DNA of 48,498 nucleotides from Candidatus Poseidoniaceae archaeon. Its GTDB lineage: Archaea; Thermoplasmatota; Poseidoniia; Poseidoniales; Poseidoniaceae. The stretch spans positions 1 through 48,498 of the forward strand of contig CASIBY010000013.1 of the NCBI GenBank assembly GCA_949373095.1. Reading direction: 5' to 3'. Below are positions 9,413-18,164 of the stretch, in pieces. The translations under genes and the position numbers were made by a program. How positions within the stretch are numbered: the stretch's first letter is position 1; each line of letters starts with the position of its first letter. The notes under the pieces were generated by a model that saw only the letters and a program-made list of their open reading frames with translations, was not told the origin of the DNA and did no database searches.

Positions 9413-10591
9413 TGCCGTTCCCTCCCTAATACATGGACTGCGCAGGTTGCACCTGACCCACCTACATTGTGGGTTAGTGCTGTTTCAGCATCGCGAACTT
9501 GCCGGCCGTCTAGCAACTTCCCCCCTCAATTGCTTGAAGACTTCAACGATTTGCCCCGTTCCAGTAGCCCCGAGAGGGTGGCCTTTAGATTTCAGACCGC
9601 CGCTAGAATTGATGGTCACGTCGCCTTGGTTCAGCACACCTCGACCCTCTCTTGCGAATGCATCCCACCCTCTCCCCGCTGGGCGAAATCCTAAGATCTT
9701 CGGTCGCCATCAGCTCAGCGATTGTGAAAGCAGTCATGAACCTCAGCAAGGTCGATGTCTCTGGGCGTAATTCCGCTCTGCTGATATGCTCGTCTTTGAT
9801 GCTTCTGCTGTGGCCTTGAGTTGGGTGATCGAAGGCCGGTCGTGCAAGAGCGAGCCGGTCCGAAGCAGCACCAGAGCCGCGAACCCAAACCGGCGTGTCG
9901 GTGAACTGCTTGAACCACATGGTCTGCCGCCAAGATTACGCAGGAAGCCCCGTCGGAGGTAGGGCAGCAATCGTACAGCGTCAACGGATCTGCCACCATA
10001 AAGCCGCCTGCAGCCTTCTCGAACGAAACCTGCTTTTGGATGTGAGCGAGGGGGTTCATGGCCCCATGCGCAGTGGTTTTTAACGCTGATGTGAACCAAA
10101 TCATCGTGGTTGGAATCGAATTCATGGAAGTGACGGCGAGCCATCAAAGCATAGGTGCCGGGGAACGTAAGACCAGCAAGACGTTCCCATTCCGTATCGC
10201 CAGAAACCCCGAGCCAGAATCGTTTTCGTTCAGGGGTTAAATCGTTCATTTTTTCGATACCACCAGCCACAACGACATCGGCTTGTCCGGACTTGATGGC
10301 CATCCAAGCGTCACGGAATGCGAACCCCGAAGAGGCGCAAGCATTCTCAACACGGCGAACGGGTACGCCATCCATTGCTGAGTGCTCGGTAAGGAGAGCC
10401 GCAGTATTTCCCAGTTGAGAACCCCCAAAAGCAATACTCCCAATAAATGCCTCATCAATTTGTGAAGGAGAAAAATCTCCGTCTACGCTCTGAAAAGCAT
10501 TCAATGCAGCCTCAGCCCACATTCCTTTGAGCCCGAGTGAGTGATTTCCAAATTTTGTCTGACCGGCACCGACTACCGCAACATCAACCAT
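9409..10591 (-). CDS. Acetyl-CoA acetyltransferase (archaeal thiolase), frame broken in this sequence
   Basis: Non-decarboxylating thiolase of the archaeal/SCP2 type that should condense two acetyl-CoA, the first step of mevalonate synthesis. From ATG 10591 the frame gives 'MVDVAVVGAGQTKFGNHSLG', then the active-site Cys context 'VENACASSGFAFRDAW' and 'VVVAGGIEKMND'. It breaks near 10072, and the rest of the protein is found by hopping between all three frames: 'AHGAMNPLAHIQKQVSFE', 'FKQFTDTPVWVRGSGAASD', 'HDRPSITQLKATAEASKT', 'SGITPRDIDLAEVHDCF', 'TIAELMATEDL', 'SSGGLKSKGHPLGATGTGQ', 'DAETALTHNVGGSGATCAVH'. At least seven single-base shifts are needed. Total span fits a normal ~390-residue enzyme. 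All catalytic blocks survive, so sequence error seems likelier than decay. Confidence 0.75.
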
Positions 10592-10707
10592 AAACGAGCG
10601 GAAAGGGTGGCGGCATTTCATACACTCGCTGCAAGATAACGAGATTTCTAAGTTCTGTATTTGTGTTGGTTCCTTGCCCGCAGGGTTCTTGAACAGGTCT
10701 CACCCGC

Positions 10708-11412
10708 ATGTACAATATGCTACGCCAATGCCGAACCCATGGACACTTCTCCGGAACCAACTGCCCCGTCTGTAACGAGGAAGGAAAATTCATCATGAGC
10801 GACAAGGAATCCAATTCGCTAGGTCGCATTCTAGCCCTCGTTTTGCGCCACGCTCCAGAAAAGTTCAACGTTGAAATGGACATCAACGGGTGGGTGAACG
10901 CCCGGGAACTTTCCGAAGCCATTGGAAAGCAACGTCGCCATTATCACTGGTTGCGAGCCTGGCACTTTGAAGCCATCTCCAACGCAGATGACAAAGGACG
11001 CTACCAAGTCGAGAACGGCATGATCCGTGCGACCTATGCCCACTCGATTGAAATTGACCTGGACCTTCCTACAGATGAGATTCCCGAAGGACTCTATTTC
11101 CCATGCTCTCCAGATGACATCGCCACATTGCTTGAATTTGGTCTCACCGCTGGTGACCGCAAGAACGTCCACCTTTCACGCACCATTCCTAACGCAATGG
11201 AAGCAGGACACGTCCACATCCACCGCCCAGCGATTCTTGAAGTTGATACTTCGCGAGCCATTGCAGATGGACACACCATTTACCGCGCGGGGAAAACAGT
11301 ATTCCTCACCGACGAAGTGCCCGGAGAATACCTTTACCAGGTCGAGCCAGATGACCCACTGCTCCTCGAAATCGTTGCTCAATGGGAGCAAGAAGAAGCA
11401 GAAGAAGAGTGA
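10708..11412 (+). CDS. kptA: RNA 2'-phosphotransferase Tpt1/KptA with N-terminal zinc finger
   Basis: A 234-residue Tpt1/KptA family enzyme. It would move an RNA 2'-phosphate to NAD+, giving ADP-ribose cyclic phosphate. Family blocks are 'LGRILALVLRHAPEKFNVEMD' near the N-terminus, 'GWVNARELSEAI', 'LYFPCSPDDIATLLEFGLTA', 'RKNVHLSRTIPNAMEAG' and 'YRAGKTVFLTDEVPGEYLYQV'. Before the catalytic part is a compact metal site (C8, H11 or H13, C19, C22), as in several archaeal members. Archaeal tRNA splicing is not known to leave 2'-phosphates, so the physiological substrate is uncertain. The gene is divergent from the thiolase. Confidence 0.88.
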   Translation: MYNMLRQCRTHGHFSGTNCPVCNEEGKFIMSDKESNSLGRILALVLRHAPEKFNVEMDINGWVNARELSEAIGKQRRHYHWLRAWHFEAISNADDKGRYQVENGMIRATYAHSIEIDLDLPTDEIPEGLYFPCSPDDIATLLEFGLTAGDRKNVHLSRTIPNAMEAGHVHIHRPAILEVDTSRAIADGHTIYRAGKTVFLTDEVPGEYLYQVEPDDPLLLEIVAQWEQEEAEEE

Positions 11413-11842: not shown

Positions 11843-12676
11843 ATGCGAGAGCGTGTAGTCATCAAGTGGGGCGGTGGACTCATCACGAAGAAAGACGTTC
11901 TCAAGCAACCTCGGTTAGATGTCATAGGAAGTTTGGCGGATCAAATACTAGAATGTAATTTACTCGGAATTGATGTCATTCTTGTCCATGGGGCTGGTTC
12001 CTTTGGCCATCTTAAAGCAAAAGAATACCGTCTGGCGGAGGGACGACTCAATCCCTCGGATTCCAGTACCTTAGGTCCAATGACCCAAGATGAAGCTATT
12101 GTGGAGGTTCGAAAGGACATGCTGGAACTTAACAAGCATATCATGGAAGCCTTAACAAAACGAGACATTTCAGCCGTATCTCTACCACCTCACCAGTGGG
12201 CCAATGAGACAGGAGCAGACTTCAAGGGTTCTCTTGAGCATTTTATTCATGCACCAAAAGGAATTACCATGGTCACCTTTGGCGATGTTGTTTCATGCGA
12301 AGGAGACAAGGAATTCGGAATTCTTTCTGGAGATGACCTTGTTGCGAGAATTGCCGTTGAAGTACCCCATGTTAAACGGCTTATTTTTGCAATAGGAGGA
12401 GTTGATGGAGTGTTGGCTGTCCCGCCAATGCAAGCTGGCCCAGACGATCTCATCGAGGTACTTACAACGGAACATGTATTTGATGGAGAACACGAATCGG
12501 CCATTGACGTAACGGGTGGAATTGGCCTTAAAGTTGACAGAGGATTCTATGTTGCCGAATACGGGATTGACGTCACCATGGTCAACGGTGGCCATCCATC
12601 GCGAGTTTTGGACGCTTGTTTAGGTCGTGTCGTTAGAGGTACAAAATTACACCCCTCGTCATCAATTTCCAAATAA
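11843..12676 (+). CDS. Isopentenyl phosphate kinase
   Basis: Amino-acid-kinase-fold enzyme of 277 residues that phosphorylates isopentenyl phosphate to IPP in archaeal variants of the mevalonate pathway. Diagnostic features are the N-terminal 'VVIKWGGGLITKK' and 'VILVHGAGSFGHLKAKEY', in which the His of HGAGSFGH is the IPK-specific substrate-binding residue. Also seen are 'VTFGDVVSCEGDKEFGILSGDDL', read here as the nucleotide-site region, and 'DVTGGIGLKV' near the C-terminus. The frame is open to 11708, but homology begins at the ATG at 11843. The next gene in the same direction is the IDI-prenyltransferase fusion, 52 bases on, so the two probably act in sequence. Confidence 0.92.
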   Translation: MRERVVIKWGGGLITKKDVLKQPRLDVIGSLADQILECNLLGIDVILVHGAGSFGHLKAKEYRLAEGRLNPSDSSTLGPMTQDEAIVEVRKDMLELNKHIMEALTKRDISAVSLPPHQWANETGADFKGSLEHFIHAPKGITMVTFGDVVSCEGDKEFGILSGDDLVARIAVEVPHVKRLIFAIGGVDGVLAVPPMQAGPDDLIEVLTTEHVFDGEHESAIDVTGGIGLKVDRGFYVAEYGIDVTMVNGGHPSRVLDACLGRVVRGTKLHPSSSISK

Positions 12677-12728
12677 CATTAGAGAACTCTTCATGTAGCG
12701 ACCGCGCTCACCATGGGTGGGGACTGAC

Positions 12729-14480
12729 ATGACTGGCTACGGTATTGATGATGTCCCCTCTCTTACCTTGGATGATGTCCAACGAAAAAACTTAGTTTCG
12801 GAAGACCGGACCCAGGCTGAGTTGATGGCGGAAGCTGTCATTCAGGTCTCAGAAAACGATCACGTCATCGGCCCTATCTCAAAATTGGAATCACATTCTG
12901 GTGCTGGTGAATACCATCGGGCGTTTAGCGTTCTTCTCTTCAATTCCAACAATGAATTATTGCTTCAGCGGCGTTCAATGGACAAAGTAACGTTCCCGGG
13001 CGTATGGGCTAATTCATGTTGTTCTCACCCGCTTCACAGCGAAGAGGAACTTGACGAGAAAAACGCAATTGGTGTCAAGCGTGCTGCAATACGCAAGTTA
13101 GAACAAGAGTTAGGGATCTCCCCAGAATCCATTTCTATCGATGATTTTGTATTCATGACGAAGATGCGATATTCATCCCGTATGAATCAAGAATGGATCG
13201 AGCGTGAATTGGACCATATCTTAGTCATACAAGCCGATGTAGAAGTCAGTCAGAACACCAATGAGGTTTCTGAAGTTATGTGGGTTAACCAAGACCAACT
13301 CGAAATGATGCTCCTTGAAGAGCGTGCAGGAGAAGAAGCTGTTGCGCCGTGGTTCCGTTGTATTGCCGCACGAGTCATGAACTCAAATTGGTGGGCTGCA
13401 ATCGGAGATAAGACCGAACTTGAAGCTTTGAGCGACGACCTCATCCATGACATGGGTGATGTGAGCCACATGCTACCTAATGCGATTGGAGCAGACCTTA
13501 TCACATCAATTAAGGAAGTGAAACCACTTGTTGAACAACGTATTGAATCCAGTTTGCGTGCATCACGCCACCCACGCCTTGCTGATGCTATGATGCATCT
13601 AATTGAAGGAGGTGGAAAGCGGATGCGAGCCACACTACCATGGTTAGTGGCCAAGGCCGTAGGAGACACACATTCAGGGCTCCTTGATATCGGTGCAGCC
13701 ATTGAAACGGTCCACAACTTTACCCTCGTACACGATGACATCATGGATGATGATGAGGTTCGCCGTGGTCGAAATGCTGTTCACATTGAATATGATATGC
13801 CCACTGCAATAAACGCAGGTGATGCAATGCTTGCTATTGCATTTGAGCGATTGGTTCAAGCAGAAAATTTGGAACCACATGATGTCGCCCCACTGGTGAA
13901 CAGAATTGCCTGGATGGTCCGACGTGTTAGCGAAGGGCAGCAACTTGACATTGAATTTGAAGATCGTCTCAATGTTTCCGAAGAGGATTATTTAGAAATG
14001 ATTGAAGGGAAAACTGCTGTCATGTTCCTCGCCTGTGCAGAAATCGGAGCCCGTGTTTCTGGGGCTGATGATGAGGTGATTCAACTGATGGCTCAATGGG
14101 GGCTATCTGTAGGATTATGTTTCCAATTAATGGATGACTTGATTGATGTACTCTCCGATTCAGCCACACTAGGTAAGCCCGCAGGTTCGGATGTTGCTCA
14201 AGGTAAGCGAACGCTGATGGTGATTCACGCCCTTCAACAACCAGATTCCGAGGCTAAGGAAATTCTACTAAAGGTGTTGGGTAAAGGTGAAGATGTTGCT
14301 CCTGAAGATTTGCAAGCAGGACTCAAGGCTCTCGAAGATTTGGGCTCAATAGCATATGCACGTGAAAAAGCTGTGGCGTATCATGCAGAAGCACACGAGT
14401 GTCTTGATCGGTTAGGGGACGGCCCGGCGATGGTCGCTCTCAGAGAGCTTACGGACTTCCAACTTGCTCGGATTCATTGA
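12729..14480 (+). CDS. Fusion: type 1 IPP isomerase (Nudix) + geranylgeranyl/farnesyl diphosphate synthase
   Basis: One 583-residue protein joins two consecutive lipid-pathway enzymes. Residues about 1-215 are a type 1 isopentenyl diphosphate isomerase: 'FNSNNELLLQRRSMDKVTFP', 'VWANSCCSHPL' with the catalytic Cys, and Glu-rich 'RAAIRKLEQELGI'. Residues about 240-583 are a trans-prenyl diphosphate synthase with the first Asp-rich motif in 'LVHDDIMDDDEVRRGR' and the second in 'FQLMDDLIDVL', plus 'GGGKRMRATLPWLVAKAV'. Product length (C15 or C20) is not certain, but archaeal lipids need C20. ATG 12729 is chosen over GTG 12717 because a GGTGGGG lies just upstream. The 3' end overlaps the MOSC gene by 32 bases, tail to tail. 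Confidence 0.93.
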   Translation: MTGYGIDDVPSLTLDDVQRKNLVSEDRTQAELMAEAVIQVSENDHVIGPISKLESHSGAGEYHRAFSVLLFNSNNELLLQRRSMDKVTFPGVWANSCCSHPLHSEEELDEKNAIGVKRAAIRKLEQELGISPESISIDDFVFMTKMRYSSRMNQEWIERELDHILVIQADVEVSQNTNEVSEVMWVNQDQLEMMLLEERAGEEAVAPWFRCIAARVMNSNWWAAIGDKTELEALSDDLIHDMGDVSHMLPNAIGADLITSIKEVKPLVEQRIESSLRASRHPRLADAMMHLIEGGGKRMRATLPWLVAKAVGDTHSGLLDIGAAIETVHNFTLVHDDIMDDDEVRRGRNAVHIEYDMPTAINAGDAMLAIAFERLVQAENLEPHDVAPLVNRIAWMVRRVSEGQQLDIEFEDRLNVSEEDYLEMIEGKTAVMFLACAEIGARVSGADDEVIQLMAQWGLSVGLCFQLMDDLIDVLSDSATLGKPAGSDVAQGKRTLMVIHALQQPDSEAKEILLKVLGKGEDVAPEDLQAGLKALEDLGSIAYAREKAVAYHAEAHECLDRLGDGPAMVALRELTDFQLARIH

Positions 14481-14947: not shown

Positions 14948-17161
14948 TCAGTCGGAATAGTAAGATTCGGGGTTAGGTTCGGGCTTCAGGCCCTTACGCT
15001 GACGAATTTCTCCAACTACCTTGTCGAAGAGTTGAGGTGGTAGAATCTCGAAACCTAGATTTTCAGTGTTCCAAACAGCTCGTCCTTGAGAAGCAGCACG
15101 AATGTCGTTTGAGAAACCGAAAGTTTCTGCAATTGGAATGACACCGACAACGGTCGTAACGTTCACCTTCAGAAGGCATGTCTTCGATGATACCACGGCG
15201 GGTTGTGACTTCACGAGTTACTTGACCAAGCCAGTCGTTTGGAACGTGAAATGAATGCCTTCTGCATAGGTTCCAGAATTACTGTGCGAGCACGCATCAT
15301 AGCACCCTTGATTCCATTACGGACTGCGGGGATGGTTTGAGCAGGTCCACGGTGAATTGCATCTTCGTGCAGTTTAGCATCAACTAGACGAACGATACAT
15401 TCCTTGACTGGTTCATCAGCAACTGGTCCCTTTACACATACTTCATTGAATGCTTCAATGATCAAGTTCACGAGTCTCGTGGAGGTCCTTGAATACCCTT
15501 GGTATCATTCACTAGGACGTTGGTTCCCTTGATTGCGTAAATCTTTCGCATCGTATCCTTGTTCCATTCCAAGTTCTCCGAATTTGTTTCCGGTTTCCTT
15601 AGCATCTCCGGAGCGGACAGGACCGTCTCCGAGGTCCCCTGAACGGAGTGCAGCGACGACCTCTTCAGGAAGTGGCTTCAATTTCAAAGAAGAATCGGTT
15701 GTGACGGTTTGGTGATTTACCTTCAAACGAATGTCCACTGCTGCTGCCTTCGATACCTTCACGGTAAACAACGATTGGAGGACTTACCTTGACCTTGATA
15801 TTTTGTTCTTCTTCAATACGGTATACTGTAATCTCCAAGTGGAGTTCACCCATTCCAGCGAGAAGAGCCTCACCTGTTTCTTGGTTGGTAGTAACTTGAA
15901 GTGAAGCATCAGCCTTTGCAAGAGAACGTAGTGCATCGATGAACTTTGGAAGGTCCTTCATGCTCTTTGGTTCAACAGCAACTGTAACCACAGGGTCTGA
16001 GTAGTGACGGATTGCTTCGAAAGGAACGAAGTCCTTGTCACGTGAAAGTGTAACACCAGCGGCTGCTGAGCGAATACCAGTAACTGCTGCAATGTTTCCA
16101 GCAACAACCTTAGGTACAGTGATTCGGTCCCCTCCGACCATCATTGAAACTTGTTGCACACGCTCTGCCTTTGCAGCACCGATTGCGAATACGGATTCAC
16201 CTTGGTGAATGGAACCTGAGTAAATACGTCCGACAGCAACTTCCCCTGCGTGAGGGTCCATCCAAATCTTGGTGATCATCATTGCAAGTTCTGCATCAGG
16301 GTCACATGTGACCATAGCCTTTCCAATTTCCGATTCAAGGTCACCGTTCCAAATGTTAGGGATACGGTATGGTTGAGCTTCTACGGGACCGGGGAGTTTG
16401 GTAACAGCCATGTCAAGAAGAACTTCGTGGACTGGAGCTTTCTCAGCCAAAGTTTTCTGGTCTTCGTTGTTGCAGTATTCAAAGATTTCAGTCATGGATA
16501 CACCAGACTTCTTCATGTATGGAATGGTAATTCCCCAGTTGTGGTAAGCTGAACCGAATGCAACAGTTCCATCCATAACGCTGACTTGCCATGTCTTTCT
16601 TAATCTCTTCAGGAGCGAATTGGCGAATGAGTTTGTTAACCTTGATGATAGTTTCTTCAAAACGCTTCAACATGTCTTCAGGAGTAACCTTTAGTTCGTT
16701 GATTAGTCGATCTACTTTGTTGATGAAAAGAACTGGCTTTACCTTCTCCTTCAACGCTTGGCGAACAACAGTCTCTGTTTGAGGCATTGGCCCTTCAACA
16801 GCACAAGCAAGGATAAAACATCCGTCAACAGCTCGCATAGCACGGGTAACGTCTCCACCAAAGTCAACGTGACCAGGTGTGTCAATGAGGTTGATTAGGA
16901 AATCAGTTCCATCAACCTGTGAACCATAGAAGCAGAAGCTGCGTTGATGGTAATTCCACGAGCTGATTCTTGGTCGTCAAAGTCCAAAACACGGGCAGCA
17001 CCAGCAAGTTCGTTTGACATCATACCGGCACCGGCAATGAGGTTGTCTGAAAGTGTTGTCTTTCCGTGGTCGATGTGTGCAGCGATGCACAAGTTTCGAA
17101 TTTGAGGAAGGATATGCATGACCTCTGTGGCCTTCTTGATGTTGTCTTCTTTGCGTCCCAT
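14948..17161 (-). CDS. fusA: Translation elongation factor EF-2, frame broken in this sequence
   Basis: Archaeal EF-2 GTPase that moves tRNAs and mRNA through the ribosome. From ATG 17161 it starts '[16 protein letters not shown]', then the G1 motif '[17 protein letters not shown]' and '[12 protein letters not shown]'. Frame shifts follow near 16922, 16590, 15676, 15548, 15490, 15465, 15243 and 15170, alternating between frames. Each piece is faithful EF-2: '[13 protein letters not shown]', '[14 protein letters not shown]', '[17 protein letters not shown]', '[15 protein letters not shown]', the diphthamide-His context '[15 protein letters not shown]', and '[18 protein letters not shown]'. The total span is exactly 2214 bases (738 codons), normal for aEF-2. 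Both extra and missing bases occur. The gene is essential, so consensus errors are the likely cause. Confidence 0.88.
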
Positions 17162-17204
17162 GGTTACCACCGTGTTCTCGTTACTTCGTCCCACCGAAAA
17201 GGGG

Positions 17205-17213
17205 TTCTTAAGT
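17205..17213 (-). promoter_or_regulatory. TATA-like box upstream of EF-2
   Basis: On the minus strand ACTTAAGAA lies about 45 bases before the EF-2 ATG, with GGTGG close to the start codon. EF-2 may thus have its own promoter, separate from the uS12-uS7 promoter, consistent with the unrelated membrane gene lying in between. Confidence 0.3.
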
Positions 17214-17276
17214 GACTCGCAGTGTTTCACATCAAGATGACCTTTGAAGTGGGTCAGATTTGAGAGAAGTTCTCCC

Positions 17277-18164
17277 TCATGAATCACTTTGGATAGGTGA
17301 AGGATTAATGAAACGAGTCGTCAAAATAAGAAAGACAATGATAAAAGCCGTTCCGGCAAAAACATTCTCTAAACGCAAAGAAAGCGCCAATACTCCAATA
17401 GAAAAGCTGAGCGCACAGACAATAACAAGGCCTATCAAAAGAAATGGAGCGTTAGATGGCCGTGTATCAATGAACTCATAGACATAATACCCTCCACCAC
17501 GAGTAGCCCAATATTCTGCAAAAATAAGATAAATGCTGCCGTATAGGAACCCAAACACTACCATAGCCAGTGGTAACTGAACCCAACCAAATATCATTTC
17601 AATAGAAAGAAAAATTAAGGAAAAATTGTGCATCATCTGTTCGTGTTTTAGAAACATATGATCCATTTCCATCTGCTTGTTCAACATATCAGGTAGAATC
17701 ACATAACGAACAATAATTGCTGTGAGTGCCGCTGAACTGAAAGCGATACCAAAGAAAGCACCACCGACGACGACAACCCATTCGGGGAGAGGCTGCCCCA
17801 TCCAAGAATAGAGCGATATCATCCCGTTTACGAGCATGGACGTACAAAATGCAATCAGGGTCCAAGAACTGAAGGGTACCAAACGTTCGACCCCAGTTGT
17901 CGCATGTTTCTCGAGTTGATTGGATTCACGGAACAGCGGAGTCATTTGCCCAGGCACTGGGTTCCGAACAATCCAGAACAATATGGCATGGAAGCCGAGA
18001 TATCCACAAGCCAGTCTATACAAAACCCGAAGTCCCTTTTGAACATCTGTTGAACCATAAATTAAATCAGCATCAAGAGCCAACAAACTCCGATTAAGCA
18101 AGATAAGAGAGACAAGCGACCCACAAAACATACCAGCAATGAGGAGACGCGATACGGTTGTCAT
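17277..18164 (-). CDS. Multi-pass membrane protein, function unknown
   Basis: About 295 residues with seven to eight hydrophobic helices, for example '[17 protein letters not shown]', '[20 protein letters not shown]', '[20 protein letters not shown]' and '[19 protein letters not shown]'. A helix with '[17 protein letters not shown]' followed by '[14 protein letters not shown]' faintly recalls FAR-17a/AIG1-type membrane hydrolases, which use Thr and His; this is a weak impression only. The ATG at 18164 is preferred to the upstream GTG at 18197. The gene sits inside the str group, between uS7 and EF-2, which is unusual. Confidence 0.6.

Follow-up and report, generated by a model that had tools for sequence, protein, structure and literature searches.

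The question raised by this locus is whether one archaeal protein carries out two successive steps of isoprenoid synthesis, the conversion of IPP to DMAPP and the elongation of DMAPP, and what joining the two enzymes might bring to the cell. An earlier note on the window, that is, the whole stretch of 48,498 nucleotides that was analysed, had described a type 1 (Nudix) isomerase fused to a trans-prenyltransferase in one protein, with the enzyme that makes its substrate encoded by the previous gene. We now consider it very probable (about 0.86) that this protein is truly bifunctional, an isomerase and GGPP synthase in one, and belongs to the archaeal mevalonate route.

The fused gene and its neighbourhood

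Positions 12729..14480 (+) form a single open frame of 583 aa without internal stop, which from the frame, the profiles and the AlphaFold2 model we annotate as a fused type 1 IPP isomerase/trans-prenyl (probably GGPP) diphosphate synthase. Residues 37-212 match the type 1 IPP isomerase profile TIGR02150 with 148.4 bits against a curated cut-off of 105.8, and PF00348, the trans-prenyl synthase family, matches residues 282-521 with 226 bits against a cut-off of 27. Both profiles are thus over their curated cut-offs within one frame, and the fusion described earlier is present. The isomerase domain was assigned to residues 31-228 (12819..13412, +) from TIGR02150, conserved residues and Foldseek; it is followed by a linker of 27 residues, 229-255 (13413..13493, +), delimited by alignment, and by the trans-prenyl diphosphate synthase domain, residues 256-583 (13494..14477, +), defined by PF00348 and its Asp-rich motifs.

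The preceding gene at 11843..12676 (+) encodes an isopentenyl phosphate kinase (IPK) of 277 aa, matching NF040647 with 149 bits (curated cut-off 120) and containing GAGSFGH, which we take to be an IPK signature; its start, the ATG at 11843, is our choice and follows the aligned frames of relatives. A gap of 52 bases (12677..12728, +) separates IPK from the fusion gene, and the two genes together span 2638 bases, which confirms both the gene order and the placing of the three steps, kinase, isomerase and synthase, within 2.6 kb. The pair is flanked by frames on the opposite strand. One is short and zinc-ribbon-like, scoring below Pfam cut-offs; the other encodes a MOSC domain, and its end overlaps that of the fusion gene. 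Upstream on the same strand, with the zinc-ribbon-like frame in between on the other strand, lies an RNA 2'-phosphotransferase (Tpt1/KptA) at 10708-11412 (+).

Conservation of the active sites was examined in an alignment of 44 members of the class: 29 fused proteins, four from genus g9 and 11 from family f3. All seven isomerase positions tested, H56, H63, C98, H100, E127, E158 and E160, are invariant in the 29 fused rows; they correspond to E. coli H25, H32, C67, H69, E87, E114 and E116 and comprise the catalytic Cys and Glu and the metal-binding His and Glu. In the synthase half 18 of the 19 positions tested are invariant in the same 29 rows, the one that varies being D341, where FARM ends; the aspartates of FARM (D1/D2/D5, here D336/D337/D340) and of SARM (D469/D470/D473) are kept in all of them, and Phe331 stands at FARM-5. 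Loss of catalytic residues, named beforehand as one result that would speak against the proposal, was therefore not observed in either half. A strict pattern of four motif blocks is present in full in 55 of 59 fused frames. Of the four exceptions, two have VCSHP for CCSHP and retain the catalytic Cys, one is truncated where its stretch ends, and the relative L163 has DDxxE in SARM.

The pN/pS ratios against three relatives, for which synonymous sites are mostly saturated, were 0.26-0.28 for the isomerase half and 0.14-0.24 for the synthase half. Purifying selection thus acts on both halves, the isomerase half evolving somewhat faster; the closest relative read (L137) is 95% identical. AlphaFold2, run with 68 aligned sequences as a monomer without ligands, returned one well-ordered two-domain protein with a mean pLDDT of 93.5 and a pTM of 0.91, a value that is no proof of a functional interface; the linker is ordered in this model, with a strand at 239-244.

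In the proposed pathway, IPK would convert isopentenyl phosphate to IPP, the N-terminal Nudix domain would turn part of this IPP into DMAPP through proton addition and removal by Cys and Glu at a metal site, and the C-terminal domain would extend DMAPP with three IPP to GGPP, the C20 compound from which archaeal ether lipids are made. We infer both activities from the conserved residues and the profile matches. Nine genomes were searched for other enzymes of the route. AcnX was found in 9/9, in pieces in the window's own, as was the PcrB/GGGP synthase family, while the mevalonate-diphosphate decarboxylase family TIGR01240 was over its cut-off in 0/9, with one weak sub-cut-off match in G106. 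This combination fits the archaeal route from isopentenyl phosphate through IPK, isomerase and GGPP to ether lipid. As a separate observation, AcnX (phosphomevalonate dehydratase) lies in frames of 546-604 residues in 7/9 genomes, and at L213:1480-3216 a single frame of 578 residues contains the AcnX domain together with a swivel domain, so that AcnX and swivel in Poseidoniia possibly represent a second fusion in the same pathway.

Distribution, origin and possible coupling

In a search of the class, TIGR02150 matched 220 of 243 genomes, 212 of them over cut-off; 23 had no match and 8 more only a match below cut-off, and most of these 31 genomes are incomplete bins. Among the loci read, the window included, at least 59 frames, 55 of them distinct, contain both domains, one of them (L091) in the single-contig genome G002. 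Those from the genomes to which we gave G numbers belong to two families only, f1 and f2, both within Poseidoniales (Marine Group II), the order of the window, and cover 20 of its 22 sampled genera; of the remaining two, g9 is unfused and g8, represented by one genome, has no match. The fused frames from the genome_contigs scan carry the titles Poseidoniales, Poseidoniaceae, Thalassarchaeaceae, Marine group II or just Euryarchaeota, with the exception of L143, titled Rhodobiaceae bacterium, which has a Poseidoniales-type fusion and is most likely a mislabelled or contaminated bin. IPK lies directly upstream on the same strand in 56 of the 59 fused loci; in L101 it is nearby on the opposite strand, and the other two loci have less than 300 bases upstream.

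The unfused state occurs in two groups. Family f3, which belongs to another order of the class and is probably Marine Group III, has isomerase and synthase as adjacent separate genes at 11/11 loci; IPK was not found within the 1.4-6.4 kb flank of this pair and is located on a different contig from the isomerase in the 7/7 genomes searched. In genus g9 (family f1) separate genes for kinase, isomerase and synthase follow one another in 4/4 genomes. Two unfused junctions, one from f3 and one from g9, were read as DNA, and in each the stop and start overlap as ATGA.

Across the phylum TIGR02150 matched 141 of 389 genomes (129 over cut-off), mostly from the class, and the only over-cut-off matches outside the class came from five f6 genomes and one f21 genome. 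The suggestion that the same domain order might be sought in other Thermoplasmatota was borne out within the window's order, for families f1 and f2, and failed outside the class, where the four f6/f21 isomerase loci read are standalone. Likewise, no fusion was seen outside Poseidoniales in the 45 non-Poseidoniia loci among the genome_contigs matches listed (best 80 loci), and five frames that are long or lie beside a synthase (in L166, L181, L199 and L201) gave no isomerase-synthase fusion in Pfam. Viral contigs yielded one distant locus (32%). Synthases of other Thermoplasmatota at L121:5120-6535 and L126:4622-6961 have N-terminal extensions of ~150 and ~460 residues, respectively, without Pfam match.

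Eleven Poseidoniales bins without an over-cut-off isomerase were searched for IPK, and in ten there was none or only a match of ~20 bits. In G066 the IPK lies near a contig edge, which makes an assembly break likely, and in G137 the synthase frame is cut by the contig end; it looks as if bins without the locus reflect assembly gaps and not replacement. Genomes of genus g15 (G024, G042, G066, G108 and others) are without the fusion and mostly without IPK, and some of these bins are >90% complete.

The linker holds an IHDMGDV stretch, which opens it in many fused proteins, and a similar tail forms the C-terminus of most unfused f3 isomerases, which puts the fusion point directly after the former end of the isomerase. 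Together with the separate, ATGA-overlapping neighbour genes of f3 and g9, this suggests that the fusion arose in Poseidoniales by in-frame joining of neighbouring genes with overlapping stop and start. In the tree f3 is split from Poseidoniales at 100/100, and g9 can be placed in two ways: AU tests gave p-AU 0.573 for all fused rows together and 0.375 for f1 together, and so allow for g9 either fission of a fused gene or an unfused ancestor.

What the cell would gain depends on what happens to DMAPP. The fusion would set a 1:1 ratio of isomerase to synthase, which the earlier note had raised as a possibility along with channelling, and it would place the cell's apparently only source of DMAPP beside the first enzyme that consumes it, a co-localisation that may be of benefit. 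We give about even odds to a plainer explanation, namely that both halves are active and the fusion fixes only their co-expression, DMAPP being released to the bulk with no channelling and the separate genes of g9 and f3 being equivalent. The adjacent separate genes with overlapping ends retained by f3 and g9 agree with it. These groups live without the fusion, which consequently is not required for function, and the cell's second synthase presumably needs an allylic primer too. Against it can be set the retention of the fusion in 20 of the 22 sampled genera, and the ordered linker and pTM of 0.91, which in the model suggest a defined arrangement; neither shows channelling.

Among joined enzymes, two systems resemble this one. 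According to passages of PMC12168105, in the diatom IDI-SQS (PtIDISQS), the natural isomerase fusion encountered in the literature searched, an isomerase is likewise fused to an enzyme that uses prenyl diphosphates; there, however, the partner is squalene synthase, a later pathway step, and the host is a eukaryote, whereas here the partner would consume DMAPP directly and the host is an archaeon. The engineered IDI-CrtE assembly, described in sections of PMC7322351, joins the same two activities, but is synthetic and mediated by peptides (RIAD/RIDD); artificial pairing of IDI with GGPP synthase is cited there (Kang et al. 2019) as raising carotenoid output 5.7-fold in E. coli. The natural fusion mirrors these deliberate constructs of metabolic engineers, and it offers a single protein for testing substrate coupling.

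In the literature searched, as titles and starts of abstracts among the matches listed and with subscription journals mostly outside it, we found no description of an isomerase-GGPP synthase fusion. Term searches found none in the accessible text of the Marine Group II papers PMC6461757, PMC6336850, PMC6962369 and PMC6864105, nor in that of PMC11052028 on archaeal isoprenoid evolution, the trees of which, by the same text, were built on IDI2. The fusion is a new domain architecture composed of known enzymes; it is real and nearly order-wide, and as a bifunctional enzyme it is apparently functional. An excerpt of PMC6336850 describes the Marine Group II archaea as abundant worldwide and as having no cultured isolates, and extracts from PMC7852524 and PMC6962369 present their membrane lipids as puzzling, since these organisms seem to be without the archaeal glycerol backbone enzyme and yet to keep the isoprenoid side. 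That an apparently sole isomerase is covalently linked to a putative GGPP synthase, and that this link is conserved, suggests that the group retains the C20 branch.

The synthase half and its product

By sequence, the nearest solved relatives of the C-terminal half are the archaeal GGPP synthases 5jfq and 1wy0, with 37-38% identity and TM 0.91-0.94 (by target); they resemble this half but are standalone, without an isomerase. Phe is found at FARM-5 in 44/44 rows of the alignment (29 fused, 4 g9, 11 f3), and a portion of PMC4244643 states that longer chains result when the equivalent Phe-77 of the Sulfolobus GGPP synthase is mutated. None of the NCBIfam synthase equivalogs was over its cut-off: GGPP_syn scored 262 bits, below its cut-off of 500, and the best, IdsA_Meth, 294 against 468. 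The synthase half is thus probably of the short-chain archaeal type with GGPP (C20) as product, which we grade no higher than likely because the assignment draws on one residue and homology and no NCBIfam equivalog passes. It seems improbable that FPP, or a C25 or longer chain, is made instead of GGPP; the best score does go to IdsA, a short-chain model, and a geranylfarnesyl model also matches, all below cut-off, but the Phe common to all rows and the identity of the nearest solved relatives argue against either product.

The window's genome contains a second trans-prenyl synthase, on contig C20, with Ala at FARM-5 and no NCBIfam synthase equivalog over cut-off. Ala at this position is expected of a longer-chain enzyme, which this synthase may therefore be, and it need not duplicate the fusion.

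The isomerase half, and the integrity of the frame

The usual archaeal enzyme for the same reaction is the type 2 isomerase, IDI2, which passages of PMC4244643 describe as present in archaea instead of IDI1 and as not homologous to it; an excerpt of PMC3533463, by contrast, reports IDI1 among the archaea in Haloarchaea and Thaumarchaeota, probably through transfer from bacteria. In the fused protein the isomerase is of type 1, and in the window's genome (81.76% complete) the fusion is the single type 1 match and no type 2 match (TIGR02151) was found. The same count, one match of type 1 and none of type 2, was obtained for the single-contig relative G002 (96% complete). The check for a second isomerase proposed in the earlier note has consequently found none in either genome, and the situation it feared, a separate functional IDI and GGPPS with an inactive fusion, was not encountered: no other isomerase was found at this completeness, and the second synthase has Ala at FARM-5.

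Type 2 matches were over cut-off in 0/33 genomes examined. Weak TIGR02151 matches, 25 in total, occurred in 20 of the 33, each partial over the model; such matches also appear in 14/14 control genomes and are therefore of little weight. With none over cut-off in the 33 genomes, a type 2 second isomerase was dropped as a candidate. A further TIGR02150 match, standalone and below cut-off, occurs in many f2 genomes. In all eight that were read (L241-L248, isomerase-like Nudix proteins of ~170-230 residues, recurrent in f2) the catalytic Cys is absent and a Nudix-hydrolase-like box is present instead, judged by the box pattern given in a part of PMC5389931; they were rejected as isomerases and taken for hydrolases related to the isomerase. 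G158 and G196 each have two over-cut-off TIGR02150 matches, both in long frames, perhaps from mixed strains.

The isomerase half appears to be a eukaryote-type IDI1. In a comparison with the PDB by sequence, human isomerases scored 157-160 bits versus 47-53 bits for bacterial ones, and Foldseek matched the AlphaFold2 model to human IDI1 (2i6k_B) with TM 0.93 (by target) and rmsd 1.5. Human IDI1 and IDI2, the closest solved isomerases, differ in being standalone and have in common with Poseidoniia an insertion after CSHP: the distance between CSHP and the ELG Glu amounts to 22-25 in 16/16 Poseidoniia, 25 in 2/2 human proteins, and 16 in 50/50 other prokaryotic rows among the matches listed. A section of PMC5389931 also gives the Nudix box spacing of human IDI1 as non-standard.

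A tree of 68 isomerase rows was built from 16 Poseidoniia, 2 human proteins, 4 other Thermoplasmatota and 46 other prokaryotes, a single archaeon among these; humans alone stand for eukaryotes, there is no Asgard row, the query alignment consisted of Poseidoniia and one human protein, and the other prokaryotes come from the matches listed. Human IDI1 and IDI2 fall with Poseidoniia on one side of a branch at 100/100, and this grouping holds at 100/100 after dropping two long rows and 31 columns rarely filled in other prokaryotes, the insertion included. In the best tree the human proteins lie inside Poseidoniia, with two f3 rows at 82/89; a constraint that keeps Poseidoniia alone was not rejected (p-AU 0.237). 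A tentative and rather doubtful extension of these data is that Poseidoniia (Marine Groups II and III) have, among known prokaryotes, the isomerase most closely related to that of eukaryotes, exchanged between the two in either direction, and that this isomerase, encoded beside a GGPP synthase gene, was fused to it, so that the sites are coupled and DMAPP is channelled. A eukaryote-type isomerase in these archaea bears on the source of the eukaryotic mevalonate enzymes.

We consider it very unlikely that the isomerase half is instead a degenerate regulatory Nudix domain. Its faster evolution (the pN/pS ratios given above) would agree with such a role, as would a statement in a portion of PMC5389931 that non-catalytic Nudix domains typically occur within multidomain proteins; however, all seven catalytic and metal positions are kept in 29/29 fused rows, no other isomerase was found in the window's genome at 81.76% completeness, and the second f2 matches read are without the catalytic Cys.

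An origin of the fused frame in misassembly or a frameshift within one metagenomic genome can be practically dismissed: the window's genome seems to have broken frames elsewhere and one relative carries the two domains in different frames, but at least 59 fused frames (55 distinct) were read from 20 of 22 sampled genera and two families, and the linker sequence is conserved among the fused proteins. The broken frames are of several kinds. In the window, an EF-2-like gene at 15665-17287 (-) and a thiolase-like gene at 9603-10621 (-), both named by eye, are split over several frames, suggesting frameshifts in this assembly. AcnX of the window's genome (C10:68495-69710), a single frame in most relatives searched, is broken by stop codons, pointing to sequencing errors or decay. 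Finally, in L138 the isomerase and the synthase occupy two overlapping frames on one contig, unlike in relatives of the same genus, and we read this split as a frameshift or sequencing error.
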